A program made the translations under genes and the position numbers. This document shows, piece by piece, positions 207 to 54,459 of a stretch of 64,000 nt of DNA. A model generated the notes under the pieces. It worked only from the letters and a program-made list of their open reading frames with translations. It was not told the DNA's origin and searched no databases. Each line of letters begins with the position of its first letter. Position 1 is the first letter of the stretch. The DNA lies in the NCBI GenBank assembly GCA_021787665.1, contig JAJYLN010000012.1:1-64000 (forward strand), written 5' to 3'. Source of the DNA: a bacterium. GTDB taxonomy: Bacteria; JAMCPX01.

Positions 207-236
207 TGAAACAATATCTGAAGGGGGGTGACGCGT

Positions 237-1928
237 ATGACTTCGAGACTCGGCGAGCTTCTCGTGAAAGAAAACTTGATAACGACAGACCAGTTGAAGA
301 AGGCTATCGAGGAGCAAAAAACCGAAGGCGGCCGACTCGGCTCGAGTCTTACGAAACTCGGGTTCGTCACCGACGAAGAGCTGCTCACCTTTCTCAGCAA
401 GCAATACAATGTCCCGGTCATAAACCTCGAAGAGTTCGAGATAGACAAGGAAATAGCGCACAAGATACCTGAGAATATAGCGAAGAAGCACCTCGTCATC
501 CCGGTCAACCAGACCGGTGCCACCCTCATCGTGGCGACTTCCGACCCGACCAACCTCGCCGTGATTGACGAGATAAAATTCCTGACCGGCTACAACGTCG
601 AGTTCGTGGCGGCCACGGAGGGCGCCCTGAAAAAGTCCATCGAGAAGTACTTCGAGATATCCACGGATTACCAGGGTATCCTCGACGAGGCGGCCGAGGA
701 ATACGAGGTCATCGGGGATGAAGACAACATAGACATCAAGACCCTCGAGAAAGCGAGCGAGGAGGCCCCGGTCATCAAGCTCGTGAACTCTATCCTGAAC
801 GATGCGATCAAGAGGGGGGCGAGCGACATCCATGTGGAACCGTACGAGAAGAGCTTCAGGGTGCGGTTCAGGATAGACGGCATGCTCTACGAGATCATGA
901 AGCCTCCCCTGTCGCTGAAGAACGCCATCAGTTCCAGGCTCAAGATCATGGCAAAACTGGACATCGCAGAGAGGAGGAGACCGCAGGACGGCAGGATCAA
1001 GATCCGGTACTCGGACGGGAAAGACATAGACTTCCGAGTCTCAGTCCTCCCCACGCTCTTCGGCGAAAAGATCGTCCTGCGGCTGCTCGACAAATCCAAC
1101 CTCCAGCTCGACATGACGAAGCTCGGATTCAACGAGAAGCAGCTCAAGGACTTCAAGGACGCTGTGCACAAACCCTACGGCATGGTACTCGTGACCGGGC
1201 CGACAGGAAGCGGCAAGACCACGACGCTCTATTCAGCACTGTCCGAGTTGAACCAGATATCCAAGAACGTCTCGACCGCGGAGGACCCGGTCGAGTACAA
1301 CATGCCCGGCGTCAACCAGGTGCAGATGCACGAGGAGATAGGCCTGAACTTCGCTGCCGCGCTCCGCGCGTTCCTCCGTCAGGACCCCAACATCATCATG
1401 GTCGGCGAGATAAGGGACTATGAGACCGCAGAGATAGGCGTCAAAGCTGCGCTGACCGGACACCTCGTGCTGTCGACGATCCATACCAACGATGCACCGA
1501 GCACCATCAACAGGCTTCTGAACATGGGTATAGAGCCGTTTCTCGTCGCGTCCTCCGTCCATGCCATACTCGCACAGAGGCTGGTCAGAAAGATTTGCGA
1601 GAAGTGCAAAGAGGATATCGAGATCGAGAAGAAGGCACTCCTCGATATAGGCATCACGGAATCGGAAACCGCGAAGGTCAAGGTCTACAAGGGCAAGGGG
1701 TGCTCGACCTGCAACAATACCGGCTACAAGGGCAGGATAGCCGTTTACGAGATCCTCACTATAGCGGAAGAGATACGGGAATTGATATTAGCGGGTGCAT
1801 CTGCTAATGAGATAAAGAAGGAAGCTATGAGGATCGGTATGATGACCATGCGACAGAGCGCTATAGAGTTATTGAAAAAGGGACTCACGACCGTGGACGA
1901 GGTCGTACGGGTAACGGCAAAGGACTGA
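237..1928 (+). CDS. pilB: Type IV pilus extension ATPase PilB
   Basis: 563-residue hexameric ATPase that powers pilus assembly from the cytoplasmic face. An N-terminal MshEN/GspE-N domain (about residues 5-150) precedes the secretion ATPase core with Walker A GPTGSGKT at about 321-328. An Asp box and His box follow. A zinc site made of two CxxC pairs (CEKC and CSTC) near residue 460-495 is typical of PilB and GspE. The ATG at 237 is chosen because it lies about 9 bases after the GGGGGG ribosome site; a GTG at 228 touches that site and is less likely. First gene of the pilBTCSR cluster, 13 bases before pilT. Length is normal for the family. Confidence 0.96.
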   Translation: MTSRLGELLVKENLITTDQLKKAIEEQKTEGGRLGSSLTKLGFVTDEELLTFLSKQYNVPVINLEEFEIDKEIAHKIPENIAKKHLVIPVNQTGATLIVATSDPTNLAVIDEIKFLTGYNVEFVAATEGALKKSIEKYFEISTDYQGILDEAAEEYEVIGDEDNIDIKTLEKASEEAPVIKLVNSILNDAIKRGASDIHVEPYEKSFRVRFRIDGMLYEIMKPPLSLKNAISSRLKIMAKLDIAERRRPQDGRIKIRYSDGKDIDFRVSVLPTLFGEKIVLRLLDKSNLQLDMTKLGFNEKQLKDFKDAVHKPYGMVLVTGPTGSGKTTTLYSALSELNQISKNVSTAEDPVEYNMPGVNQVQMHEEIGLNFAAALRAFLRQDPNIIMVGEIRDYETAEIGVKAALTGHLVLSTIHTNDAPSTINRLLNMGIEPFLVASSVHAILAQRLVRKICEKCKEDIEIEKKALLDIGITESETAKVKVYKGKGCSTCNNTGYKGRIAVYEILTIAEEIRELILAGASANEIKKEAMRIGMMTMRQSAIELLKKGLTTVDEVVRVTAKD

Positions 1929-1941
1929 CCGGGGAGGGCCG

Positions 1942-3069
1942 ATGAGCTTTAATCTGCACCAATTGCTGAAGGTAATGATAGAGAAGGGGGCAAGCGATCT
2001 CCATATAACCACGGGCAGCCCGCCTCAGCTCAGGATAGACGGCGAGCTGGCACCGTTAAAAGTGCCTCCCCTCACCGCGACCGAGACGAAGCAGTTGTGC
2101 TACAGCATTCTTACGGACGCACAGAAACAAAAATTCGAGCAGGACAATGATCTCGACCTGTCCTTCGGGGTAAAGGGGTTGAGCAGGTTCAGGGCGAACA
2201 TCTTCATGCAGCGGGGGGCCGTCGCCGGTGCATTCAGGACAATCCCCTTCAAGATCCTGAGCTTCGAGGAACTCGGCCTCCCGCAGGTCGTGTCCGACCT
2301 TACCAGGAAGGCACGGGGACTTATCCTCGTAACCGGCCCAACGGGTAGCGGCAAGACGACGACGCTCGCCTCGATTATATCCAAGATAAACGAGGACAGA
2401 CACGAGCATATCGTTACTATCGAGGACCCCATAGAATACCTGCACCCCCACAAGAATTGCATCGTAAACCAGAGGGAGGTCGGTGCGGACACGAAGGGCT
2501 TCTCGAGCGCCCTGAAATATATCCTGAGACAGGACCCTGACGTCGTACTCATCGGCGAGATGCGGGACCTCGAAACGATCGAGGCGGCACTGAACACCGC
2601 GGAGACCGGGCACCTCGTCCTCGCGACACTGCATACGAACTCCGCGGTCCAGACCATAAACAGGGTGGTCGACGCGTTCCCCCCGCACCAGCAGCCCCAG
2701 GTGAGGGCACAGCTCTCCTTCGTCCTCGAAGGCGTGCTGACCCAGTCCCTCATACCCAAGCATAACCAGCCCGGCAGGGTACTTGCATGCGAGCTCCTGA
2801 TACCAACGCCCGCCATAAGGAACCTGATACGGGAAGAGAAGGTCCACCAGATTTATTCCCACATGCAGGTTGGGCAGTCGAAGTTCGGCATGCAGACAAT
2901 GAACCAGTCACTATTCAACCTCTTCCAGCGGAAGCTCATCTCGGTGGACGACGCTATGGTATACTCGACGGATCTCGAAGAGCTCAAACAGATGCTGCAG
3001 GCCGGTACTGCTGCACCGCCGTCTATCCAGGCCCAGGCAAGGATGCAGAATGCCCAGAAAAGCTTTTAA
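1942..3069 (+). CDS. pilT: Type IV pilus retraction ATPase PilT
   Basis: 375-residue hexameric ATPase that drives pilus disassembly and hence twitching. It has the PAS-like N-domain and the RecA-like core with Walker A GPTGSGK at 132-138. The Asp and His boxes are clear, and the AIRNLIRE motif conserved in PilT, needed for retraction, is present near residue 290. The start follows a GGGGAGG ribosome site. A roughly 25-residue Ala/Gln-rich tail after the core is not unusual. It sits between pilB and pilC and is probably co-transcribed with both. Confidence 0.96.
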   Translation: MSFNLHQLLKVMIEKGASDLHITTGSPPQLRIDGELAPLKVPPLTATETKQLCYSILTDAQKQKFEQDNDLDLSFGVKGLSRFRANIFMQRGAVAGAFRTIPFKILSFEELGLPQVVSDLTRKARGLILVTGPTGSGKTTTLASIISKINEDRHEHIVTIEDPIEYLHPHKNCIVNQREVGADTKGFSSALKYILRQDPDVVLIGEMRDLETIEAALNTAETGHLVLATLHTNSAVQTINRVVDAFPPHQQPQVRAQLSFVLEGVLTQSLIPKHNQPGRVLACELLIPTPAIRNLIREEKVHQIYSHMQVGQSKFGMQTMNQSLFNLFQRKLISVDDAMVYSTDLEELKQMLQAGTAAPPSIQAQARMQNAQKSF

Positions 3070-3082
3070 ACGGAGGTAGTCT

Positions 3083-4294
3083 ATGGCCGTTTTTACGTGG
3101 GAAGGAATCAAAAAGACAGGCGAGATCGTTAAAGGCAGCACAGAAGCCCAGAACGAGAACGCTGTAATAGCTATACTGAGGCAGCAGGACGTCCGGCCCA
3201 CCGCCATCAAGGAAAAGAAGGCGGCCTTCGATATCGCCAACATGAGCATCTTCAAGGAGAAGGTCAAGGGAAAAGACCTGTCCATCTTTACGCGGCAGTT
3301 TGCGACGATGATAGACTCCGGTCTCCCGCTTGTCCAGTGCCTCGACATACTCGGCAGCCAGCAGGCCAACAAGAACTTCCAGAAGACCATTCGGGACATA
3401 AAGTCATCCATAGAGGGCGGATCCACGTTCGCCGCTGCCCTGAAAAAACACCCGGACACTTTCGACTCCCTGTACACCAACCTCGTAGCCGCGGGTGAGG
3501 TGGGCGGCATGCTCGACACGATTCTCGCGAGGCTCGCGACCTATATCGAGAAGGCAGAAAAGCTCAAGGGCAGGGTAAAAGGCGCAATGATGTACCCGAT
3601 AATCGTGCTCACGGTCGCAGCAGGCGCGGTCACGATCCTTCTGCTGTTCGTGATCCCCGTGTTCGCGAAGATGTTCGCCGATGTGGGCGCTGCCCTGCCC
3701 GCGCCGACCCAGATCGTTATGGACATCAGCTACGGCCTGAAACACTACATCATCTACATCCTCGTCGCGATAGGCGCGATCATATACGGAGTAAGGTACT
3801 ACTATAAGACCGCCAATGGTAAACTCATGATAGACGGACTGCTGCTCAAGACACCCGTATTCGGCGAGATTATACGAAAGAACGCGGTGGCGAGATTCAC
3901 GAGGACGCTCTCGACGATGATTTCCAGCGGCGTACCGATCATGGACGGCCTCGAGATCGTCGCGCGCACGTCGGGCAACGTGATCATCGAGAACGCCATC
4001 ATGAAGGCGCGTGAGAGCATCGCTGCCGGGAAGACAATCTCCGAGCCCCTCGCGCAGACCAAGGTCTTCCCCTCTATGGTCGTCCAGATGATCTCCGTGG
4101 GCGAGGCCACCGGAAACATGGACGCGATGCTTTCGAAGATCGCAGACTTCTATGACGAAGAGGTGGACACCGCGGTCGCTGCGATGACGTCGCTCATTGA
4201 GCCGCTGATGATAGTGTTCCTCGGCGTCGTCATCGGTGGACTTGTCGTCGCCATGTACCTGCCAATCTTTAAGATTGCAAGTACGATCCATTGA
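3083..4294 (+). CDS. pilC: Type IV pilus inner-membrane platform protein PilC
   Basis: 403-residue integral membrane protein with two T2SSF domains (about 70-190 and 270-395), each ending in hydrophobic segments; three transmembrane helices are expected (near 170-195, 215-240 and 375-400). In this family the protein couples PilB/PilT to pilin insertion. It begins MAVFTWEG after a GGAGG ribosome site and ends in TGA overlapping the pilS ATG, so pilS translation is probably coupled to it. Confidence 0.96.
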   Translation: MAVFTWEGIKKTGEIVKGSTEAQNENAVIAILRQQDVRPTAIKEKKAAFDIANMSIFKEKVKGKDLSIFTRQFATMIDSGLPLVQCLDILGSQQANKNFQKTIRDIKSSIEGGSTFAAALKKHPDTFDSLYTNLVAAGEVGGMLDTILARLATYIEKAEKLKGRVKGAMMYPIIVLTVAAGAVTILLLFVIPVFAKMFADVGAALPAPTQIVMDISYGLKHYIIYILVAIGAIIYGVRYYYKTANGKLMIDGLLLKTPVFGEIIRKNAVARFTRTLSTMISSGVPIMDGLEIVARTSGNVIIENAIMKARESIAAGKTISEPLAQTKVFPSMVVQMISVGEATGNMDAMLSKIADFYDEEVDTAVAAMTSLIEPLMIVFLGVVIGGLVVAMYLPIFKIASTIH

Positions 4295-5934
4295 TGAAAG
4301 ACCGTAGCGATATCCCTCGCCCGGAACCGCCAATCGAGAAACAAGAGCTCCTGAGCAGGCTCTACTGGTCTACCGGGATCAGAATGGCCATCGTGACCCT
4401 GCTCGTCGGGTTCGCGGTGACCATCTACCAGTACCGGACGGTATTCAGCCTGCTGCCGTGGCTGTCTCCCCTGATCATCCTGATCATCTCCCTCTACGTT
4501 CTCAGCCTCATCGAGCTGCTGAACCTGAGAAGGCAGGAGGCACTCAGGAGCATAGCTTATCTTGCCACGGCGCTGGATGCCGTGTTCGTGTCCGCCGTCG
4601 TCGTCATGACCGGTGGCATCGACAGCATCTACACCTTCCTCTACCTGTTCGTTGCCGTGGAGGGCGGATTCCTGCTTTCCAAAAGGGGAGCGCTCATGTT
4701 CGCGTCCCTGTCCTCGATACTCTACGGGCTGCTCGTTGACGTCCAGTACTACCACCTGCTTCCCTCGCTGATACTACCGTCGCAGCTCTTTACCTCGATC
4801 GGGGGCACGCTGGTCAACATGATCACGTACATGAGCACGACGTTCATCGTGGGGATCCTGAGCGCCTTTCTCGGAGACAGCCTCATCAGGGCAAAGAAGG
4901 CTCTCTCTGCAAGCAGCTCGGACCTGCTTCGTCTGAAAAACCTCCACACCATCATCATCGATAGCATAGATACCGGCTTGATAACCCTCGATGCCTACGA
5001 CAGGATCGGCACCATGAACCCCGCGTCCTGCCACATAACCGGGTACAGCATCGGCGAGGTCGCCGGCAAAAACATCGGGAGCATCGTGCCCGGCATTCGG
5101 CTCAGGGACTTCTCCACCAAGAGGAACGAACTCGCCATAAAGAAGAAGGATGGCACCACGATCCAGATAGGCTATACCGTGTCGAACCTCTATAAGGATA
5201 CGGACAGGCCGATCGGCATAGTCATAGCCTTTCAGGACCTGTCCGAGTTGAAAGAGATGGAGGCGCGCCTGAAACGGGCCGATATCCTCGTTACTGCCGG
5301 CAAACTCGCAGCGAGCGTCGCACATGAGATACGTAACCCTCTCGCATCCATCAGCGGGATGATCCAGTTGCTCCGGGAGGATCTGAGAGGTAACGAAAAA
5401 TTCGAGAAGCCGCTGGACCTCGTATGCAGGGAGGTGGACAGGATAGACAACCTGGTCACCGAGTTCCTCTCCATGTCGAAGCCCGTAACAAACATTCGGG
5501 AGGGCGTGACGCTGAAGCCGATCGTCGATGAGGTCTTCGAGAGCGTCAGGGAGAGAGGAGACTACAGCCCCTCGATAATCCTGCTCAACGCGGTAAAGGA
5601 CGGGACATCTCTGCGGGCGGACGCGCTGAAGATGAAACAGATATTGCTCAACCTTGTTCTTAATGCTATTCATGCAATCAAGGAGGCAGGCACAGTGACC
5701 GTAGCATGCATCGAACAGGACAACCATGTTACGATCCTGGTGAAGGACAACGGGCGTGGTATGGACGAAACCGAGGTACAATCGTCCCTCGAGCCTTTCT
5801 GGACGACAAACCCGGGGGGCACGGGGCTTGGTCTTCCGGTCGTGCTGTCCATCGTTGAGCAGCACAACGGCGCCCTGTCCATAACGAGCAGGAAAGGAGA
5901 AGGCACGACCGTTGAGGTCAGGCTGCCGTTGTAA
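4294..5934 (+). CDS. pilS: Sensor histidine kinase PilS
   Basis: 546-residue membrane histidine kinase. About six hydrophobic segments occupy residues 25-190, followed by a PAS domain (about 205-320), a dimerisation domain with phospho-acceptor His344 in AHEIRNP, and a C-terminal ATPase domain with N, G1 and G2 boxes (DNGRGM, GTGLGL). In known PilS proteins the membrane part senses pilin levels and the kinase signals to PilR. The ATG at 4294 overlaps the pilC stop (TGATG); a TTG one codon earlier is possible. Gene order and topology support the PilS call over a generic NtrB-like kinase. Confidence 0.92.
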   Translation: MKDRSDIPRPEPPIEKQELLSRLYWSTGIRMAIVTLLVGFAVTIYQYRTVFSLLPWLSPLIILIISLYVLSLIELLNLRRQEALRSIAYLATALDAVFVSAVVVMTGGIDSIYTFLYLFVAVEGGFLLSKRGALMFASLSSILYGLLVDVQYYHLLPSLILPSQLFTSIGGTLVNMITYMSTTFIVGILSAFLGDSLIRAKKALSASSSDLLRLKNLHTIIIDSIDTGLITLDAYDRIGTMNPASCHITGYSIGEVAGKNIGSIVPGIRLRDFSTKRNELAIKKKDGTTIQIGYTVSNLYKDTDRPIGIVIAFQDLSELKEMEARLKRADILVTAGKLAASVAHEIRNPLASISGMIQLLREDLRGNEKFEKPLDLVCREVDRIDNLVTEFLSMSKPVTNIREGVTLKPIVDEVFESVRERGDYSPSIILLNAVKDGTSLRADALKMKQILLNLVLNAIHAIKEAGTVTVACIEQDNHVTILVKDNGRGMDETEVQSSLEPFWTTNPGGTGLGLPVVLSIVEQHNGALSITSRKGEGTTVEVRLPL

Positions 5935-5967
5935 TCCGATGGCGTGGAGGACAAAAAGGGTCCTACT

Positions 5968-7350
5968 ATGATTCAGATACTGGTCGTGGACGATGACAGG
6001 AGCATGCGTGAGTTCCTCGAGCTCGTGCTAAAGCGCGAGCGTTACAGCGTGACGTGTGCCAAAGACGGCGCGGACGCCATCCTGCTCCTCAAGGAGAACT
6101 ACTTCGATCTCGTTATCACCGATCTCATGATGCCCGCGATAAACGGGCTGGAGGTGCTGAAAAAAGCGAAGGAGCTGTATCCGGATATACAGGTAATCGT
6201 CATAACGGCGTTCGGGGCCATCGAGACAGCGGTGAAAGCGATAAAGCTCGGCGCCCACGACTATATCACGAAGCCGTTCAACAACGACGACCTGAGACTT
6301 CGGATCCATCGCGCTATCGAGACCCAGAAGATCGAGCACGAAAACAGGAGGCTCAAGCAGGAGCTCGGCATGAAGGATGGGAAGTGGGACATCATCGGCG
6401 TCAGCAGCAGCATGCAGGAGGTCTTCACCCTCATCAACAGGGTAAAGGACACGAGGACCAATGTCCTCATCTCCGGGGAATCCGGAACAGGCAAGGAACT
6501 CGTGGCCCGCGCAATACATAATCAGGGAGTGCGCAGGGACGAGCCGTTTATACCGATCAATTGCGGAGCGATCCCGGAGAATCTCGTCGAGAGCGAGCTG
6601 TTCGGTCACAAGAGGGGCTCGTTTACCGGGGCCATTGAAAACAAAAAGGGACTCTTCCTTGATGCAGATGGCGGCACTATTTTTCTCGACGAGGTCGGCG
6701 AACTGTCGCTCCAGGCACAGGTGAAGCTCCTGCGGGTCATCCAGGACAAAAAGATAAAGCCCATCGGGGACCCGACCGAGTACCCGGTGGATGTCCGGAT
6801 ACTATCCGCTACCAATAAGGATCTGAGGCAGCTCGTTAAGGAGTCCCGGTTCAGGGAAGACCTGTTTTATCGTCTGAACGTGATACAGATAGAAATGAGG
6901 CCTCTGCGGGACAGGAGAGACGATATACTTCCCTTGGCGAGACACTTCCTCGAGAACTATAGCGCGGAGTTCTCCAAAAACATTCAGAACTTCTCGAAAG
7001 AGGCAATGGACCTATTGAAAAACTACTCTTATCCGGGCAACATCCGTGAGCTTGAGAACATCGTGGAGAGGGCGGTCGCCATAGAATCAACGCCGGTCAT
7101 ACTGCCTGAATCGCTTCCGAAGGAACTAACCCTCGTGGCTGCCGACAAGGGTGGACGCAGCTATACCCTGGAGGACATCAGGCTCACGTTCAACGGCGTC
7201 ATTGATAATCTCCTCGCTACCATAGAAAAAGGACTCATAGAAGATGCGATCAGGGCATGTTCCGGCGACCGGACAAAGGCGTGCGGGATGCTGGGCATAC
7301 CAATGCGCTCGCTGCGGTACAGGATAAAAAAGTACAATATCATAGATTAG
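5968..7350 (+). CDS. pilR: Sigma-54-dependent response regulator PilR
   Basis: 460-residue NtrC-type activator and likely partner of PilS. Receiver domain at 1-120 with phospho-acceptor Asp52. AAA+ domain at about 140-380 with Walker A GESGTGKE. C-terminal Fis-type helix-turn-helix, with TKACGMLGIPMRSLRYRI near the end. The sigma-54 contact loop reads GSFTGA instead of the usual GAFTGA. ATG at 5968 is preferred because AAGGG lies just upstream; the in-frame GTG at 5944 lacks a ribosome site. PilR normally activates pilA from a sigma-54 promoter, but no pilA gene is present here. Confidence 0.92.
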   Translation: MIQILVVDDDRSMREFLELVLKRERYSVTCAKDGADAILLLKENYFDLVITDLMMPAINGLEVLKKAKELYPDIQVIVITAFGAIETAVKAIKLGAHDYITKPFNNDDLRLRIHRAIETQKIEHENRRLKQELGMKDGKWDIIGVSSSMQEVFTLINRVKDTRTNVLISGESGTGKELVARAIHNQGVRRDEPFIPINCGAIPENLVESELFGHKRGSFTGAIENKKGLFLDADGGTIFLDEVGELSLQAQVKLLRVIQDKKIKPIGDPTEYPVDVRILSATNKDLRQLVKESRFREDLFYRLNVIQIEMRPLRDRRDDILPLARHFLENYSAEFSKNIQNFSKEAMDLLKNYSYPGNIRELENIVERAVAIESTPVILPESLPKELTLVAADKGGRSYTLEDIRLTFNGVIDNLLATIEKGLIEDAIRACSGDRTKACGMLGIPMRSLRYRIKKYNIID

Positions 7351-7433
7351 GCTTTGCGCGTTTCCGTATTTATTGCCAGCTCCCTTTGTTTATGCTTGAT
7401 TGAATCGTGTACCTATTTATAAAAGGAGGCACC

Positions 7434-8642
7434 ATGAAAATTTTGAAGACCGCAGGGGCAATACTCTTTATTACCATAGTACCTGCGATTGCAATGGCAT
7501 CATCCCCTATCAACATCGATTCGAGTACCTACCTCGGAACCTACGGCCTCACGCTGAACAACACCGACAACAACTACCTGCCTTTCTATGAAAATGTAAA
7601 CTTTACCTATTCGATACCGAGAGACGACCTGAGCATCAATGCATCGGGCTGGCTCAGGTACGATATGCTAACGGCCCCGTATCCACAGAGAACAGCTGCG
7701 GACTTCCCTTACGCGTACGTTACTTACAAGCCCGTATCGCTGCCATTAAAGGTCAAACTTGGCAGGATCTACAGCTGGTTTGGTGTGGCGAATGATCAAT
7801 ACGACGGACTTGAACTGATGCTCGGCAGCATGTACGGGCTAGGCCTGGACGCATTCGTGGGCAGTGAAGTGGACTCGGAACTACACAACAGCCCGGGCGG
7901 CATCACGACGGGCGGCAGGCTGTTCTACAACAACGCCTTATTCGGCGTGGGCGCTTCCATGCTCTATGCCGGAAACGACGGCCTCATATCGCAGGAGCGT
8001 TGGGGCGTCGACGGATGGGTAACCCCCGTCAGTATGTTGTACCTGTTCGGGAGATACTATTACGATATCGTCGATAAAACGGCTTATGACGGTACGATAA
8101 AGGTGTCTTTGAGCCCGTTGAAGAAGCTGTTCATAGACGCCCAGTACGGGCTATTCAATCCCGCATCCCTGATTGACAAGACGAGCATATTCTGGGTATT
8201 CAATACGGAATCCTACCGGAACATCAACGGCGACGTGGGCTACAGGATCCTCGATAATCTATCGCTCGCCATCGAAGGCACAAGGTACCTGTACAGCTCA
8301 TACGGCAACTCGTACAGCTACGGAGCAAAGGTTACCTACGATAAACACCCCTACGCGCTGGGCCTGGAACTCGACAAGGTGGACTCCATGCCCACGGATT
8401 ACCTGACGACGAGACTCTATGCATTCAGGACATTTACCATGGCATTTTACGCCGATATAGACGTCATATACACATCGTACATGGGCATGCTGAACGGCTA
8501 TAGCCAGAGCTTGACCGGGCACGTCGCCGTAGGCAAGACTATCATCGACGACCTGAAGATTACCCTGTCAGCGGATTCCATAGACGGACCTTATGTGCGG
8601 CATGGCGGGTTCGGCATGCTCAGCTTGAAATACGAACTTTAA
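7434..8642 (+). CDS. Predicted outer-membrane beta-barrel protein (porin-like)
   Basis: 402 residues. A clear signal peptide (KILKTAGAILFITIVPAIAMA, cleavage near residue 22) is followed by alternating polar/hydrophobic segments rich in Tyr, Gly and Asn, the pattern of a transmembrane beta-barrel; there are no long hydrophobic helices and no cysteine motif. The start has a perfect AAGGAGG ribosome site. It is 83 bases after pilR and 12 bases before a 13-haem cytochrome gene, so the pair may form a porin-cytochrome conduit across the outer membrane. That role is inferred from context. I do not recognise a specific family such as MtrB or OmbB. It could also be a substrate porin or biogenesis partner. 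Confidence 0.65.
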   Translation: MKILKTAGAILFITIVPAIAMASSPINIDSSTYLGTYGLTLNNTDNNYLPFYENVNFTYSIPRDDLSINASGWLRYDMLTAPYPQRTAADFPYAYVTYKPVSLPLKVKLGRIYSWFGVANDQYDGLELMLGSMYGLGLDAFVGSEVDSELHNSPGGITTGGRLFYNNALFGVGASMLYAGNDGLISQERWGVDGWVTPVSMLYLFGRYYYDIVDKTAYDGTIKVSLSPLKKLFIDAQYGLFNPASLIDKTSIFWVFNTESYRNINGDVGYRILDNLSLAIEGTRYLYSSYGNSYSYGAKVTYDKHPYALGLELDKVDSMPTDYLTTRLYAFRTFTMAFYADIDVIYTSYMGMLNGYSQSLTGHVAVGKTIIDDLKITLSADSIDGPYVRHGGFGMLSLKYEL

Positions 8643-8654
8643 AGAGGAGATATT

Positions 8655-9704
8655 ATGAAAAAAAAGGCCCTTTTGACCAGTGTCTTCATACTGCTCTCGG
8701 TTTCCTGCAACAAGGTACTCTCTTCGGGCAAAAACACCCTGATATTCTCGCACAAGCTGCACGTGACAACCAACGGTATAGACTGCCTCACGTGCCATGC
8801 AGGCATCGATACCACGACCACGACGGCCGGCAGTTACATTCCGAAGATGGACATCTGCTTCCAATGTCACAGTGACGCACAGAACAAGTGTACCATGTGC
8901 CACACGAACCCGGACAAGGCCGCGCCGTTTCCGATAGAGAAGCGTGACATCATTTTCCCCCACAAGTCCCACCTGCCGAGAGTCAAGGGCGATTGCACGT
9001 ACTGTCACACAAAGATACCCTTCGAAACAAGACCGAAGCCGGGCAATCTCCCCACGATGCAGGTATGTATGTCGTGCCACCAAAAGGACTATGACACCCT
9101 GCAATGCTCGAAATGTCATACCGCGCTCAGCTCGTTATCTATTGAAAGGCTGTCAAAATTCACGCACAATGCCGGCTTCAAGGAAGACCACGGCAAGTTT
9201 GCAAGGATGGATTCGAAGACGTGCGAGCAGTGCCATCAGCTGTCGTTCTGCAACAACTGTCACAACACCAATGCCAAGATACTCCCGGCGGTCCGTTATC
9301 CGGAAGCACCGCAGCAGCCGCTTATTCACCGGGGTGACTGGCTTGCCGTACACTCCATAGATGCGCAGCAGGACCCCATGGCATGCTACCGGTGTCACAC
9401 AGCATCCAACTGTCGTGACTGCCATCTGCGCCATGGAGTCGCTGCGAACGGATCGCCGAATACGGCCTCTCCCCACCCTGCAGGGACGGACTTTCTCTTT
9501 AACACGGCCTCGCCGCAGTTCCACGGAAGACTCGCCAGGCAGAACATCAACACTTGTGCGTCGTGTCATAGCGGCGGTGCGGACGCGGTGTGTATACAAT
9601 GCCACAAGGTCGGCGGCATAGGAGGCAACCCGCACCCCGCGGACTTCAGATCCAGCCTCTCTATGAACAAGGACAAGGTCTGTGTCGTCTGCCACGGACA
9701 ATGA
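8655..9704 (+). CDS. 13-haem c-type cytochrome, probably exported
   Basis: 349 residues with 13 CxxCH haem-binding motifs (CLTCH, CFQCH, CTMCH, CTYCH, CMSCH, CSKCH, CEQCH, CNNCH, CYRCH, CRDCH, CASCH, CIQCH, CVVCH), about one haem per 27 residues, plus many extra His for distal ligation. The N-terminus is a signal peptide; Cys18 in LLSVSC could be a lipidation site, though the lipobox is imperfect. The gene follows the beta-barrel gene by 12 bases behind AAAGAGGAGA. Multihaem cytochromes of this kind transfer electrons in the periplasm or through or onto the outer membrane. The physiological donor and acceptor are unknown. The haem count is direct from sequence. Confidence 0.9.
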   Translation: MKKKALLTSVFILLSVSCNKVLSSGKNTLIFSHKLHVTTNGIDCLTCHAGIDTTTTTAGSYIPKMDICFQCHSDAQNKCTMCHTNPDKAAPFPIEKRDIIFPHKSHLPRVKGDCTYCHTKIPFETRPKPGNLPTMQVCMSCHQKDYDTLQCSKCHTALSSLSIERLSKFTHNAGFKEDHGKFARMDSKTCEQCHQLSFCNNCHNTNAKILPAVRYPEAPQQPLIHRGDWLAVHSIDAQQDPMACYRCHTASNCRDCHLRHGVAANGSPNTASPHPAGTDFLFNTASPQFHGRLARQNINTCASCHSGGADAVCIQCHKVGGIGGNPHPADFRSSLSMNKDKVCVVCHGQ

Positions 9705-9856
9705 TAGGAAGTTCTGACGATGAGCCGGACCCTTGCTTTTCTGAAAAGAGGTAATACGTTTTCTAACCTCATGAAGTGCGTTACACTTGAAAGGTTGCTC
9801 CGTTCTGGACCATGCTGCAATTTATAAAGACATTCATAAAGAAAAAAGGAGCTCAT

Positions 9857-10462
9857 ATGGCAGCCCCAAAAAAGAAGACCAAGAAAGGGACAAAGGCCGT
9901 CAAGACCGTACGGCCGGCAGTCCGGCCCAAAGGTAAGGTGCGATCGGCAAAACTGAGATCCGGGAGGGCGCTGCGGAAGACGAAACCCGTACTGAAGGCC
10001 ACAACAGCCACAACGAAAGCGCCTCTGCAGAAAAGGCAAGCCGCCCACGGAGAGTATGAGCATATCAAACAGATGCTCCTGAAGATGAAAGCAGAAATCG
10101 TTGACCAGCTTGTGAAGAAGAAGTCTTCCCTGGAAGAGGAGAAGACTATCGAGATAGAAGACCTCGATGCAATAGCAGAGGACAGAAACAGGGAGTACGA
10201 GTACCTGCTGACGACCATGGACACGAAGAAGCTCAAACAGATCGACGAGGCGCTCACGAAGATAGAGAACAAGACCTACGGAGTATGCGAGGTGTGCGGC
10301 GAAGAAATACCCGTTGCGCGACTGAAGATATTGCCCTTCGCCAAACTCTGCATAGACTGTGCATCGAATGTGGAAAAAGAAGAGGCCTTGAAGCAGTCGC
10401 TCGAGAGCGAGAAAGACATCTTTACACCGGGCAATAGCGAGGAAGAGAACGATATAGAATAG
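9857..10462 (+). CDS. DksA/TraR-family zinc-finger protein with basic N-terminal tail
   Basis: 201 residues. Residues 1-65 are rich in Lys, Arg, Ala, Thr and Pro and look disordered. Residues 65-150 form a predicted coiled coil (DLDAIAEDRN region), and the C-terminal zinc finger has CEVC and CIDC pairs around residues 155-180. DksA-type proteins enter the RNA polymerase secondary channel; others in the family bind elsewhere, so a direct ppGpp-cofactor role is not certain. ATG at 9857 follows AAAAAGGAG; an upstream in-frame ATG at 9812 has no ribosome site. The gene stands alone, convergent with sat. Confidence 0.85.
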   Translation: MAAPKKKTKKGTKAVKTVRPAVRPKGKVRSAKLRSGRALRKTKPVLKATTATTKAPLQKRQAAHGEYEHIKQMLLKMKAEIVDQLVKKKSSLEEEKTIEIEDLDAIAEDRNREYEYLLTTMDTKKLKQIDEALTKIENKTYGVCEVCGEEIPVARLKILPFAKLCIDCASNVEKEEALKQSLESEKDIFTPGNSEEENDIE

Positions 10463-48810: not shown

Positions 48811-51405
48811 TTATTGGTTCACGATCCGGGGTGTAATGAAGATGAGCAGCTCGGTGGTCGTGTTTGTGTTAGTCGTGTTCTTGAACAGCCAGCCGATCAG
48901 AGGTATCTTGTAGAACCACGGAACACCGGACACGGTGGTGGACTTGTTGAACTGGTATATGCCGCCGATGACGGTGGTCTCACCGTTCTTCACGAGCACC
49001 TCGGTGTCTGCCTCCTTCTTGGATATACTCGGCACACCGCTCGCGCTGAGTATGGAGGTATCAGGCGCGTTCTTGGCGGCCTTTATCTTCATGATGACGC
49101 TGCCGTTCGCGGTGATGTGCGGAGTCACCTCGAGGCTGAGGACCGCATCGATGAATTGGGTCTGTGTACCCTGCTGAGATACCGTCTGGTAAGGTATCGA
49201 GAGACCCTGCTGGATAGTCGCCTGGGTATTGTCGAGCGTCGTGACCTTGGGGCTCGAGATGATCTTGCCTTCGCCGGTCTGTTCCATAGCGCTCAACTGG
49301 AGATCCAGAAGGATGCTGTTGGTGATGTTCCCGAAGGTAAAGCCTATCGTACCGCCAGCTCCAGTCCCGACCGCTGCCGGGAGGTTGACGATGTAGTTGC
49401 TTCCGCTCGCACCGGTTCCTCCGGCCAGCGGTGTGGGCGGAGTCGTCGCGTTCTGCCGTATGATACCGCCTCCGATCCCTATGGTGTTGGGGAACGAGAC
49501 GCCGGTCGGATTGCCGTAGGCAGGGCTTGCCACATAGTTCGTGCCCCATTGCACGCCGAGCTGCCTGCTGAAGTTCGTGTTAGCCTCGACGATCCTCGCC
49601 TCGATCAGGACCTCCGGGGTCTGGAGGTCCAGTGCCTTCACGAGCTTCTCTGACTCTGTTATCACTTTGGGCACGTCCTTGATGATGAGGGAGTTCGTCC
49701 GTACATCGACGTTCACGGATCCACGGGATGTCAGGAGCGACTTGATCTGCGTGGCAAGGTCGCTCGCCTTCGCATAGTTGACAGGTATTATCCTGGTGAT
49801 GAGCTCCTCGAGCTTCTCTTGCTTCTGCTTGGACTCGAGCTGGGCCTCTTCTTCCTTCCTGAGTTTCGCGAGCGGCGCGATCCGTATGATGTTGCCGACC
49901 TGCACCATGCCGAGGTTGTTCGTCTGGAGTATGATATCGAGGGCTTGGTCCCAGGGAACATTGACCATCCTCATCGTGATCTTGCCGGCAACATCATCGC
50001 CCGCTATGATGTTCTTGTTGCTCACCTCTGCTATCAGCCTGAGTATGTCCTGGATGTCCGCATCCTTGAAATCGAGAGAGATTCTCCTCCCGGTGTACAC
50101 CCGCTTCATCCCGAGACTCTGGGGAGAGAAGGCGACTGGCGACGCCGCGGGTCCGCTTATCTGTTGGGGAGCCGGGGCTCCGGGTATTTCGCCCTCCGGC
50201 TTCGGCAGGACCACTACGCCCTGTTCATGCACGCCCGAACCGATGGTGGCAACGAGCTTATTGCCCTTCTTCTCGATCGTGTAAGGCGGAAATGACCCAC
50301 GGGGGGTATCGAGCACAAACCTCACCTTGTCCGGGTACTGCCCGATCCTCACTCTCTGCACATCGCGCGTGTTGATGGGCATCTCGAGCGCGGGAAACAG
50401 GTTACCCACATTGAGGACATCTATAACCAACCTCGGAGGGTTGTTGAGCTTGAACGCGTTGTAATTCCCGATGTCTCCGTTCCCGACAAAGTCTACGACT
50501 GTTTTATTGTCGTTCACTGCATACTTGATATCAATGATCTTTGATGCCGTGGGCTGCTCCGACTGTGTCGGCTGGGGGAGGGACTGCTCTTCGACGACAG
50601 GAACTGCAGGGGTCGACAACGGCTGTGCCGATAATGGCGGTAATGGTTCTGCCGACACCGGGGATAACGGTGGTGCCGACTCAGTGGGCATGACCTCTCC
50701 GGTGGGCTGTGTTGCCGCCTCGGGCTGGAGGGACTGGATCCCCACCTCCGGTGTGGGCCCCACCTCCGGTGTGGGCGCAAGTCCTGCGGCAGGCGCCATC
50801 TCCGGCAGGAGAGGCTGCTGGGTGGTCTGTGGAGCTGACTCCCCGGCCGGCGATGTTATCGTTGGAGAAGCACCCGACTCCGGCGTCCCGGTCAGTAGCG
50901 GGGCCAACGCTGTTCCTGTCTCCTCCGATCCGCTGACCGGGATCTCGGGCAGGAGGCCAGAGGGTTGGGCCTGGGCCACCGAGGCCGTCTTGGAGACATT
51001 CACGACGAGATTGTTCCCTTGGACCACGGCGTTGTAATCAACGAGCTTGTCCAGTCCTATGTCGATCCTGCCAACGACGTTCCCGGACTCCTCCTTTACA
51101 GGCTTCGTCTTGATCGTGTTTATCACGCCGTTGTCGATGGGAAGGCTCTTGGACAACGCGGATATGTCCGCGTTGGTCAGGTCCACGACCACCCGTAACG
51201 GGTTGGTCATCTTGTATACCGTGTATACCGGGGGAACGCTTCCTTCTATCGTAAGGATGGTCGAATCGGCCTGATCCGCCACGTTTATATTACCGATAAG
51301 ATCCTTGTTTGCGGTCGGGGCGGGCCGTGCGCCCGCACACGCACCCACAAGAAAGACCACCATCGAATTCAGCAATACAATCCTCGTCTTGATTTTTATT
51401 TGCAT
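48811..51405 (-). CDS. pilQ: Type IV pilus secretin PilQ
   Basis: 864 residues. A signal peptide with a possible lipidation Cys (LVGAC) starts the protein. A first AMIN domain spans about 45-130; residues 150-285 are Pro/Thr/Glu-rich and include tandem TPEVG; a second AMIN domain is near 285-395. An STN domain (about 435-500), a secretin N-domain and the secretin barrel with the VPWFYKIPLIGWLF motif end at ITPRIV. The AMIN domains bind peptidoglycan, the barrel is the outer-membrane gate for the pilus. Last of pilMNOPQ and co-oriented with aroCKB. Confidence 0.95.
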   Translation of the reverse strand: MQIKIKTRIVLLNSMVVFLVGACAGARPAPTANKDLIGNINVADQADSTILTIEGSVPPVYTVYKMTNPLRVVVDLTNADISALSKSLPIDNGVINTIKTKPVKEESGNVVGRIDIGLDKLVDYNAVVQGNNLVVNVSKTASVAQAQPSGLLPEIPVSGSEETGTALAPLLTGTPESGASPTITSPAGESAPQTTQQPLLPEMAPAAGLAPTPEVGPTPEVGIQSLQPEAATQPTGEVMPTESAPPLSPVSAEPLPPLSAQPLSTPAVPVVEEQSLPQPTQSEQPTASKIIDIKYAVNDNKTVVDFVGNGDIGNYNAFKLNNPPRLVIDVLNVGNLFPALEMPINTRDVQRVRIGQYPDKVRFVLDTPRGSFPPYTIEKKGNKLVATIGSGVHEQGVVVLPKPEGEIPGAPAPQQISGPAASPVAFSPQSLGMKRVYTGRRISLDFKDADIQDILRLIAEVSNKNIIAGDDVAGKITMRMVNVPWDQALDIILQTNNLGMVQVGNIIRIAPLAKLRKEEEAQLESKQKQEKLEELITRIIPVNYAKASDLATQIKSLLTSRGSVNVDVRTNSLIIKDVPKVITESEKLVKALDLQTPEVLIEARIVEANTNFSRQLGVQWGTNYVASPAYGNPTGVSFPNTIGIGGGIIRQNATTPPTPLAGGTGASGSNYIVNLPAAVGTGAGGTIGFTFGNITNSILLDLQLSAMEQTGEGKIISSPKVTTLDNTQATIQQGLSIPYQTVSQQGTQTQFIDAVLSLEVTPHITANGSVIMKIKAAKNAPDTSILSASGVPSISKKEADTEVLVKNGETTVIGGIYQFNKSTTVSGVPWFYKIPLIGWLFKNTTNTNTTTELLIFITPRIVNQ

Positions 51406-51416
51406 TTTGTTCCCCC

Positions 51417-51947
51417 TTAAAATTTTTCAGTCTTTTTCAGTTCCATCGTAACCTCGTTCGTCTTCACTTTCCCGGTAAAGACGTCCGTGTACTGCTCCAG
51501 AACAACGAGCCTGTCGTTCATTATGCGGATGATAACTCCGTTGTTCTTGCCAATCTTCGTCCCGATACCGACGATGTAGGTCTTGTTCGTCGGGTCTGCT
51601 ATGATGGCTTTTGCATTCGTCACGCCCCATATGATGCCCTTCAGCGTGAGCTGATCGAGCGAGAACTGCTGGAGCGGGGTCAGTGCCGCGTTGGGCTTTA
51701 CCTTCGAAATATCGAACGGCTCGAAAGGGTCAGGCTTGCCTGCCGGGTTGTAATAATACGTCGATGTTGTCGCGGTAACAGCGGCCGGGGCAGGCGGCTG
51801 TGCGGTCACGTTCGGCTGCACCGCAGGAGCCGGGACCTGTGCCCGCTGTGGTGCGGCGGTGCTCTGGACGCCAGGCTTCTTGCAGCCTGCAGTGGCAAGC
51901 ATCAGCACGCCGAGATTGATCACGAACAGCAATCGCATCTTTTTCAT
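51417..51947 (-). CDS. pilP: Type IV pilus lipoprotein PilP
   Basis: 176 residues. Signal peptide with lipobox LATAGC; a Pro/Ala/Gln-rich linker of about 60 residues follows, then the beta-domain with LDQLTLKGIIWG and AIIADP, the PilP signature. It links the PilNO alignment complex to PilQ. The Met at 51947 is chosen over one six codons upstream because GAGGG precedes it by a suitable distance. Confidence 0.93.
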   Translation of the reverse strand: MKKMRLLFVINLGVLMLATAGCKKPGVQSTAAPQRAQVPAPAVQPNVTAQPPAPAAVTATTSTYYYNPAGKPDPFEPFDISKVKPNAALTPLQQFSLDQLTLKGIIWGVTNAKAIIADPTNKTYIVGIGTKIGKNNGVIIRIMNDRLVVLEQYTDVFTGKVKTNEVTMELKKTEKF

Positions 51948-51961
51948 ACATTTTCCCTCTC

Positions 51962-52558
51962 TCATTTTTTGGCTCCGGGTAACGGGGTTGTCTCCACGAA
52001 CCTGAATATCTTCGTCATGAACGACGCGTCGAGCATAGCCTTGCCCGTAGAAGTTTGCTGCAGGACCGTGAGACTAATGTCCGCCACGTTGACGATCCTC
52101 TGGAGTTCCGCAAGCTTAAAGAGAAACATGGCGATATCGGTATACGTGCCGGTCACGTGCAGTTGGACCGGTATTTCGGCGTAGAAGCCCTTCACAACCT
52201 CGGGCATCGGCTGCACCTGTATCACGTTGAGTTCCGATGTCTTTGACAGGGTGTTCAGGGTGACCAGGTACTTGTCCACGTCGGAGCTATTCGGCAGCTT
52301 GGTCAGGGCCTCGCTCAACTGCTCCGAAAGTTTGTTGAGCTCGTCCTGAAATTCCTGCTTGTGATCAGCTATTGCCTGGGTCTCCAGGACCTTTGCTTGG
52401 AGCGATCTCTCCTGCGACTGGAGTGCGGCGAGGGTATTCCTCTCAGACAGGTAGCCGGGCCAGACATACAGGTCCAGCAGCAGTATCAGTACCAGCACGA
52501 CTCCCAGTATCAGCAGCTTCTGCTGCATGTTCAGCTTCGATAAGGCGCTCATATCCAT
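51962..52558 (-). CDS. pilO: Type IV pilus inner-membrane protein PilO
   Basis: 198 residues. A short cytoplasmic start, a transmembrane helix (about 15-35), a coiled coil (about 40-95) and a ferredoxin-like periplasmic domain ending near residue 185 match PilO. ATG at 52558 follows AAAGGAGGA. It pairs with PilN in the alignment complex. Confidence 0.93.
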   Translation of the reverse strand: MDMSALSKLNMQQKLLILGVVLVLILLLDLYVWPGYLSERNTLAALQSQERSLQAKVLETQAIADHKQEFQDELNKLSEQLSEALTKLPNSSDVDKYLVTLNTLSKTSELNVIQVQPMPEVVKGFYAEIPVQLHVTGTYTDIAMFLFKLAELQRIVNVADISLTVLQQTSTGKAMLDASFMTKIFRFVETTPLPGAKK

Positions 52559-52586
52559 GATAATTCCTCCTTTATTCCTTTCGTCC

Positions 52587-53183
52587 CTACTGTCCGTGAC
52601 CAGTCCCCGGGACGGCATGGAACTTGCAAGTCAGCGAGAACTTATACAGCAGCAGGTCGTTCGACTTTACCTGCTGCGTATTGGCAAGGCTGACGTTCCC
52701 GAAATACGGATCGTGGGAAAGGTTGTCCATAAACTCGGCCAGAGTGCTGTTATCAAGCGCCACACCGCTCATGCCGAGCATGTCGCCGTGCTGCTGCAGC
52801 GATGTAAGCCACAGCTTTTTCGACAGGATGCTCGTTTGGTCTATGGGGATGCATTTCGACAGCTCGTCCATGAGGTGGACCTCTGCTGTCCTGTTTTTCT
52901 CGAGCGTGGATATGATGTTGAGCTTGGCCTTGATTTGGTCCTTCATCTTCTTGAAGTCATTGATATCACTCACCTCTTTATTGAGTTGGACCAGCCTCTG
53001 GTTGAGACGCGAGATGCCCGCATGTGCCGAGGAGATCGATCGCCCCATGGTGTACTCCATGAAGAACAGAATAGCGACGACGACCACCACCAGGGCCCCG
53101 CCCATGGCGAGCTGCTGGTATATCGCGACTTCCTTTGCGGTTGTACCTTTCTTTGCCTGTTTGAGTAGATTGATTGTTATCAT
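52587..53183 (-). CDS. pilN: Type IV pilus inner-membrane protein PilN
   Basis: 198 residues. The N-terminal INLL motif, which fits into the PilM groove, is at residues 4-7. A transmembrane helix (about 28-48), a coiled coil and a small periplasmic domain follow. It starts 2 bases after the pilM stop. Confidence 0.93.
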   Translation of the reverse strand: MITINLLKQAKKGTTAKEVAIYQQLAMGGALVVVVVAILFFMEYTMGRSISSAHAGISRLNQRLVQLNKEVSDINDFKKMKDQIKAKLNIISTLEKNRTAEVHLMDELSKCIPIDQTSILSKKLWLTSLQQHGDMLGMSGVALDNSTLAEFMDNLSHDPYFGNVSLANTQQVKSNDLLLYKFSLTCKFHAVPGTGHGQ

Positions 53184-53185
53184 AG

Positions 53186-54241
53186 TCAGTTACCGGTCCT
53201 TCTTATTGCCAGGCCAACGGCGATGGATACGATGGGCGCTATATCATTTATATAGTTGATGTCGAACACCTTGGTGTTGACCGCCACGTTCTTAAACGGA
53301 TTAATGAGCTCCACAGGCAGGCCCGTCTTCTGGGTTATAGAGTCTGTAAAGCCAGGGGTCTTGGCAGTCCCCCCGCTCAGCATAATCTTCGCTATCTTCT
53401 CCCCGCCGGTCGACAGGTAGAAGTCTATGGACCTCTGGACGTCCGCGGAGATGGCCTCGGACGCTGACTTGATGATCTCCATGACGTCCGGGGTAACCGG
53501 GGCCCCGTCGCTCCCCACCTTCCGCTTTTCCGCTTCCTCCCTGGATATGTTCAGGCCCTTCTGAATTTCCTCGGTGATTTGGTTGCCCCCTGACTGGGTG
53601 AGGTCCCTCGCAAAAATGGGTATCCCCTTGCTTACGACGTTGAAGTTGGTTATGCTCGCCCCGACGTTCACCACGGCCACCGTATCGTTGATGTACTCGG
53701 GATAGTTAATCTCGAACATGTTCTGAAGGGCGAAGACGCCGATGTCGATTATGGTCGTGTGGAGCCCGGCATCGCCGATGGCGGTGATATAGTTGTTGAT
53801 GAGCTCCTTCTTTGCCGCGACCAGAAACACCCCCATCTGACCTTCTGCGGTCGACCTCTCGAGCACCTGGAAGTCGAGGTTCACCTCATTGATGTTGAAC
53901 GGGATATACTGCTCCGCCTCCCACTGTATCGATTCCGCCAGCGCCTCATCCGTGGTGATGGGCATGTTTATCTTCTTCATGATCACGGAGTGTCCGGACA
54001 CGGCGGTTGTGACGCCCTTCGTTTTCAGCTTCAGGTTAGCGAGGATGCCTTTGATGGCGTCCGTGACGGCTGATGGGTTGATGATGTCACCGTCGACTAT
54101 CGTGTCTGGCTGAAGATCCGCTGTACCGAGGTTGATCAACTGGTAGCCTTTTTTCCCGACAGCTTTCAGTTCGATCAGCTTTACGCTGCTCGTGCCGATG
54201 TCCAGCCCTATGAGTTGTTTACCACCACCAAAAAAAGCCAT
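53186..54241 (-). CDS. pilM: Type IV pilus cytoplasmic ATPase-like protein PilM
   Basis: 351-residue FtsA/actin-like protein. LIGLDIGTSSVKLIEL is phosphate-1, VNVGASITNF phosphate-2 and LSGGTAKTPGF the adenosine motif. It binds ATP and the PilN INLL motif at the cytoplasmic membrane. ATG at 54241 follows AGAAGGAGG. First of the pilMNOPQ set, 17 bases after the small HTH gene. Confidence 0.95.
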   Translation of the reverse strand: MAFFGGGKQLIGLDIGTSSVKLIELKAVGKKGYQLINLGTADLQPDTIVDGDIINPSAVTDAIKGILANLKLKTKGVTTAVSGHSVIMKKINMPITTDEALAESIQWEAEQYIPFNINEVNLDFQVLERSTAEGQMGVFLVAAKKELINNYITAIGDAGLHTTIIDIGVFALQNMFEINYPEYINDTVAVVNVGASITNFNVVSKGIPIFARDLTQSGGNQITEEIQKGLNISREEAEKRKVGSDGAPVTPDVMEIIKSASEAISADVQRSIDFYLSTGGEKIAKIMLSGGTAKTPGFTDSITQKTGLPVELINPFKNVAVNTKVFDINYINDIAPIVSIAVGLAIRRTGN

Positions 54242-54258
54242 AAAACCTCCTTCTCCTC

Positions 54259-54459
54259 TCAATCAGGAAACACCTTGTCCTTGTCGGTGATCTTGAACCC
54301 CAGTGCCTGGATGATCTTCCTCTTGGTGTCCACCCTGCATTCCTTGCCCTGCTCTATCCTTGTTATGGTGAGGACAGATATGTTCGCCTTCCTTGCCAGC
54401 TCTGCCTTACTCATCAGCGCTTTGCTCCGCACTTGTTTCAGATTGTTATGCTTCCCCAT
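54259..54459 (-). CDS. Small XRE-family helix-turn-helix regulator
   Basis: 66 residues forming one Cro/C1-type HTH (SKAELARKANISVLTITRIEQGK) with a short C-terminal extension. There is no other domain. It is 17 bases upstream of pilM and shares the direction, so it may regulate or be co-transcribed with the pilus assembly genes. The ATG at 54459 follows GAGG. Confidence 0.82.
   Translation of the reverse strand: MGKHNNLKQVRSKALMSKAELARKANISVLTITRIEQGKECRVDTKRKIIQALGFKITDKDKVFPD

Follow-up and report, generated by a model that had tools for sequence, protein, structure and literature searches.

A beta-barrel and 13-haem cytochrome gene pair downstream of a pil operon as a probable two-gene Pcc-type electron conduit

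Gene content and conservation of the locus

The locus lies in a 64,000-nucleotide stretch of DNA (hereafter, the window) belonging to a 2.25-Mb assembly (the window genome, G000), and nine genomes of its phylum were compared. An open reading frame with an ATG start, preceded by an AGGAGG ribosome-binding site, begins 83 bases past the end of a pilB-pilT-pilC-pilS-pilR run, on the same strand, and encodes a putative outer-membrane beta-barrel; the gene for a multihaem c-type cytochrome starts 12 bases after it (Table 1). The first-pass annotation had described a signal-peptide-bearing barrel and a 13-haem cytochrome with this spacing after the pil genes, and its coordinates and counts are correct. 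The gene following the cytochrome encodes a DksA-like protein, and no surface-cytochrome gene lies beside the pair. Farther downstream, a run resembling pilM/pilO/pilP with a pilQ-like secretin was noted on the reverse strand (48814-54262), judged by gene order and sequence only.

Table 1. Features of the locus, with positions given in window coordinates.
Feature	Position	Strand	Remarks
pilB-pilT-pilC-pilS-pilR	228..7350	+	Domains: T2SSE twice, T2SSF, PilS-type 6TM kinase, sigma-54 activator
Predicted Pcc (OmbB-like) outer-membrane beta-barrel, 402 aa	7434..8642	+	Signal peptide; C-terminal ...LSLKYEL
13-haem c-type cytochrome, OmaB-like, N-terminal extension, putative lipoprotein, 349 aa	8655..9704	+	
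Cytochrome gene part: signal/putative lipobox and five c7-like haems, residues 1-141	8655..9077	+	Not in OmaB
Cytochrome gene part: five-haem core, residues 148-261	9096..9437	+	With HRGDxLxxH
Cytochrome gene part: C-terminal three haems, residues 265-349	9447..9701	+	Common to OmaB (hhalign)
DksA/TraR-type zinc-finger protein	9812..10462	+	PF01258 5.8e-15; synteny

Within the phylum, the barrel was identified in eight of the nine genomes; the ninth is a fragmented assembly with 80% completeness. The 13-haem gene follows the barrel wherever the contig goes on. The relatives of the window genome, which include the metagenome bins DX4.bin27, DBS2-1.bin76 and WY2.bin9, are 57-77% identical to the window in the barrel and 73-83% in the cytochrome, with a gap of 9-12 bases between the two genes and all 13 haem motifs invariant. 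Since both genes, the short gap and the haem motifs are conserved in these relatives, the pair is not a chance arrangement. The DksA-like gene comes after the pair in all four genera and is hence its stable neighbour.

In genus g4 (G007), an octahaem cytochrome gene in divergent orientation lies in front of the pair (L019:8523-10055); its counterpart in the window genome is located elsewhere (contig C19, L189:5636-7132). This cytochrome bears a distant likeness to the tetrathionate-reductase family, its TIGR04315 score of 125 bits falling short of the cut-off. DsrA (TIGR02064) was detected above cut-off in seven of the nine phylum genomes, with no more than weak matches in G000 and G007.

Homology of the two proteins to Pcc components

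CXXCH occurs exactly 13 times in the cytochrome, at residues 44, 68, 79, 114, 138, 151, 190, 199, 244, 253, 301, 313 and 343. The Pfam and NCBIfam libraries returned generic haem families only (Cytochrome_C7, covering residues 30-84, paired CXXCH and an MtrC-like domain), and a sequence search of the PDB likewise produced generic c7-like matches only. When the cytochromes of the window phylum were compared with an alignment of 8-haem OmaB-type proteins, residues 169-347 were matched with a probability of 99.7% (hhalign, E 3e-26, 34% identity). The last eight haems are colinear with those of the 8-haem protein of OmbB-OmaB-OmcB-type clusters, and about five c7-like haems precede them; the match extends beyond CXXCH to the non-haem motifs HR[GS]D, DPxxCYRCH, R-N-[IL], CIQCH and NPHP. 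The alignment of both OmaB-type and 5-haem proteins to the cytochrome starts no earlier than about residue 142. A profile of the five-haem core, in which HRG are the invariant non-haem residues, matches the Pcc-type cytochromes examined, and this core is encoded beside a barrel across the family. The tree of the core had very long branches and little resolution, and no placement was drawn from it. The free histidines that are invariant number eleven against 13 haems, which leaves two distal ligands unassigned. The motif SCNK at residues 17-20 is also invariant and, with Cys18, fits a lipobox, which suggests a lipid anchor for the cytochrome.

Sequence searches of Pfam, NCBIfam and the PDB gave nothing significant for the barrel, which corresponds to no ordinary porin family in these resources; the first-pass annotation had recognized no conduit family for it. 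AlphaFold models computed from four sequences per protein had a mean pLDDT of 25.5 for the barrel and 31.9 for the cytochrome and were discarded. The assignment of 7434-8642 as a predicted beta-barrel is based on homology, on the signal peptide and on the strand pattern, for which a crude home-made count gave about 20-22 peaks; Pcc barrels are described as having 18-22 transmembrane strands. Direct profile comparison of the barrel with OmbB-type barrels was weak (hhalign, 80% probability, E 1.4e-5), whereas a mixed barrel profile (A5) reached the OmbB-type barrels via intermediates at E 6e-34; as judged from these profiles, the strong link between the barrel and OmbB is transitive and the direct one weak. 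The profile links of the barrel extend to barrels located beside 5-, 8- and 12-14-haem cytochromes. In the barrel tree, barrels paired with 8-haem cytochromes and those paired with 5-haem cytochromes group separately, each with support. The window phylum constitutes a long branch of its own (support 100/100); it falls outside the OmbB group, and the tree does not resolve its position among barrels whose partners have 12-14 or 5 haems.

The barrel and cytochrome profiles were run over 386 genomes. Barrels in other phyla were retrieved by the barrel profile (A1) at E-values of 1e-13 to 1e-33, with weaker ones at 1e-7 to 1e-5. A core-type cytochrome directly follows the barrel in 10 of 10 testable places found with the barrel profile (E-values up to about 6e-5), and the barrel directly precedes the cytochrome in 9 of 10 testable fetched places found with the cytochrome profile (E-values no higher than 1e-25), bearing out the earlier expectation that homologues of the two genes co-occur. 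The sole exception is a cytochrome without a barrel (L111), which is a second copy in its genome (G182). The cytochromes outside the phylum differ in size: some have 12-14 haems and are colinear with the window cytochrome over nearly its full length, and others have 5 haems, which match residues ~148-257 only and are usually followed by another cytochrome. Most other multihaem proteins beside these loci were unmatched by the cytochrome profile, and no relatives of the pair were found in the viral contigs and plasmids searched.

In one order, whose cytochromes bear a Geobacter-type motif, the barrel was detected in 116 of 141 genomes. Four genomes of that order (G410, G411, G432 and G436) encode in succession a barrel of 403-417 residues, a cytochrome with 8 or 9 haems and 231-259 residues, and a large lipoprotein with 8-9 CXXCH; G432 and G436 each have two of these sets next to one another. 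In L158, L160 and L162, the gene of the OmaB-type protein is flanked on one side by that of an OmbB-like barrel and on the other by that of a large lipoprotein with 8-9 CXXCH, which is the published OmbB-OmaB-OmcB gene order. Adjacent, non-identical OmbB-OmaB-OmcB-type sets have been described in G. daltonii and G. uraniireducens (PMC4245776). The OmbB-, OmaB- and OmcB-type proteins of L158 had no relative in the PDB by sequence search.

The gene content, homology, colinearity and co-occurrence observed here coincide with what characterizes Pcc members: a porin-like gene immediately adjoining that of a multihaem cytochrome, in the phylum as well as in other bacteria, a cytochrome of OmaB-type homology with 13 haems (family range 5-14), and a barrel with OmbB-type homology, weak in direct comparison and strong with the family profile. 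Clusters of two genes without a surface cytochrome count as Pcc members, the surface-cytochrome gene being usual and not obligatory (PMC4245776).

Proposed conduit function and its relation to the pilus genes

On this evidence, the pair can be classified, by homology, as a distant Pcc (OmbB/OmaB-like) member of the two-gene sort with 12-14 haems. The first-pass annotation had likened a porin plus multihaem cytochrome to outer-membrane electron conduits, a likeness that the Pcc homology of both proteins upholds; it had also suggested that the pair may be a new conduit tied to pilus regulation. A new conduit family is not supported, in view of the two-gene 12-14-haem systems published in 2014, and neither is the tie to pilus regulation. 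The pair is probably an extracellular electron conduit, and not a novel pilus-tied one.

We consider it highly probable that the two genes encode a two-gene Pcc conduit in which the barrel sheathes the five-haem core and the extra haems lengthen the chain. Outer-membrane location, complex formation, lipid anchoring and electron transfer are predictions from sequence. The barrel, with some 18-22 strands, would sit in the outer membrane around the five-haem core of the cytochrome. The additional N- and C-terminal haems would extend the chain on the periplasmic side, towards the surface or in both directions, and a single protein would in this way do the job performed in Geobacter by OmaB and a second cytochrome. 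Electrons would thereby move between cytochromes of the periplasm and a partner outside the cell, either a mineral or surface cytochromes whose genes lie elsewhere in the genome. The window genome encodes many further multihaem cytochromes; two of them are large and lipoprotein-like and others are of an NrfH-like inner-membrane type, and these could be partners of the pair. Its contig C15 also harbors, at ~101500-109600 (L183:6565-14594), genes for multihaem cytochromes with 17, 9, 7 and 11 CXXCH together with a b-type cytochrome, a cluster that is likely a quinol-oxidizing module. A more ambitious version of the model, which we put forward as a tentative and somewhat doubtful idea, is that of a minimal conduit, in which the lipid-anchored 13-haem cytochrome and the small barrel would span the outer membrane on their own, the cytochrome acting as both periplasmic and surface partner, and would represent the only recognizable outer-membrane conduit of this small, uncultured phylum.

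The direction of electron flow defines a sub-case of the Pcc explanation, with which its probability overlaps: the conduit might run inwards, as in Fe(II) oxidation. Two-gene conduits of the Mtr family without a surface cytochrome have been discussed for Fe(II) oxidizers, and the bin names of the relatives suggest, by inference, acid mine drainage; the NrfH-like and b-type inner-membrane modules, however, fit quinol oxidation and outward flow, and we regard inward operation as unlikely.

Under a different explanation, PilS-PilR would turn on the pair with the pili as parts of one extracellular electron-transfer programme. Its appeal lies in the position of the pair immediately behind pilR on the same strand, an order found in three of the four genera (g1, g2 and g3), and in the partial conservation of the pilR-barrel gap, where a conserved stretch around TTGCCA...TGATT(G/T)AA (window 7351-7433 and the corresponding gap in L015, L016, L017 and L022) has no match to the sigma-54 consensus. 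In addition, a similar barrel and 5-haem cluster in G436 lies directly downstream of a different kinase and an NtrC-type regulator (L161:10030-13923), the latter 44% identical to the window PilR. In g4, however, the pair and pilBTCSR are on different contigs, and hence the adjacency to the pil genes is a local feature; it is the DksA-like gene that stays beside the pair, no relatives of pilB, pilT or pilC were found near those homologous loci that were retrieved from outside the phylum, and no -24/-12 site scoring above shuffled sequence was detected upstream of 7434 or upstream of the window genome's pilA. The latter, a typical pilin gene with an N-methylation signal, was found on contig C8, away from the pair. 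Neither the stable linkage to pilSR nor the upstream sigma-54 site that would mark a PilR operon is thus found here. The pair was also said to occupy the usual pilin position: there is indeed no pilA after pilR in the window, but in g4, where the gene after pilBTCSR is unrelated and lies on the other strand, pilA does not come after pilR either, and therefore the pair is not obviously its displacer. PilR control of the pair is unsupported, and the pilus-regulated conduit very unlikely, although regulation by some sigma-54 system is possible.

That the barrel is a porin for soluble nutrients, by chance beside a periplasmic cytochrome and conducting no electrons, would suit its size, smaller than MtrB, and the missing adjacent surface-cytochrome gene, but is hardly credible for a barrel that matches no porin family in Pfam, NCBIfam or the PDB, stays with its cytochrome across distant bacteria and follows the cytochrome type in the barrel tree.

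Comparison with known conduits

With the pair read as a Pcc-type conduit, the carriers of such conduits now include a whole small phylum. The comparison also lends itself to a modular reading of Pcc, consisting of an invariant five-haem core by the barrel, to which three C-terminal haems are added in OmaB and further N-terminal haems in the two-gene versions, and this reading makes the replacement of a missing surface cytochrome by added haems a testable idea.

MtrAB and PioAB resemble the proposed conduit in working principle, a barrel sheathing a cytochrome in a two-protein complex. They differ from it in that MtrB/PioB (PF11854) has no match in the barrel or in any of the nine phylum genomes, and in that the window cytochrome is kin to OmaB. 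The Geobacter ExtBCD/ExtEFG type, made up of a barrel, a 5-haem lipoprotein and further cytochromes, was compared through loci of such architecture (L100-L107 and L161-L166), where the barrels are, by profile, of the family found in the window and the cytochromes share its five-haem core; in the window this core is embedded in a 13-haem chain. Geobacter OmbB-OmaB(-OmcB) shares with the window a barrel of about 400 residues followed by a cytochrome, with eight colinear haems and the non-haem motifs in common; the window cytochrome differs in its five extra N-terminal haems, the window pair has no OmcB-like gene and the barrels are distant. The two-gene Pcc clusters of Anaeromyxobacter and Ca. 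Kuenenia, likened here by description, consist of a porin-like protein and a single cytochrome of 338-344 residues with 12-14 haems and have no surface-cytochrome gene, and it was proposed in the 2014 survey that the extra haems compensate for that absence (PMC4245776). In contrast to these clusters, the window pair comes from a different lineage, with its own long branch in the barrel tree, and its cytochrome looks lipid-anchored.
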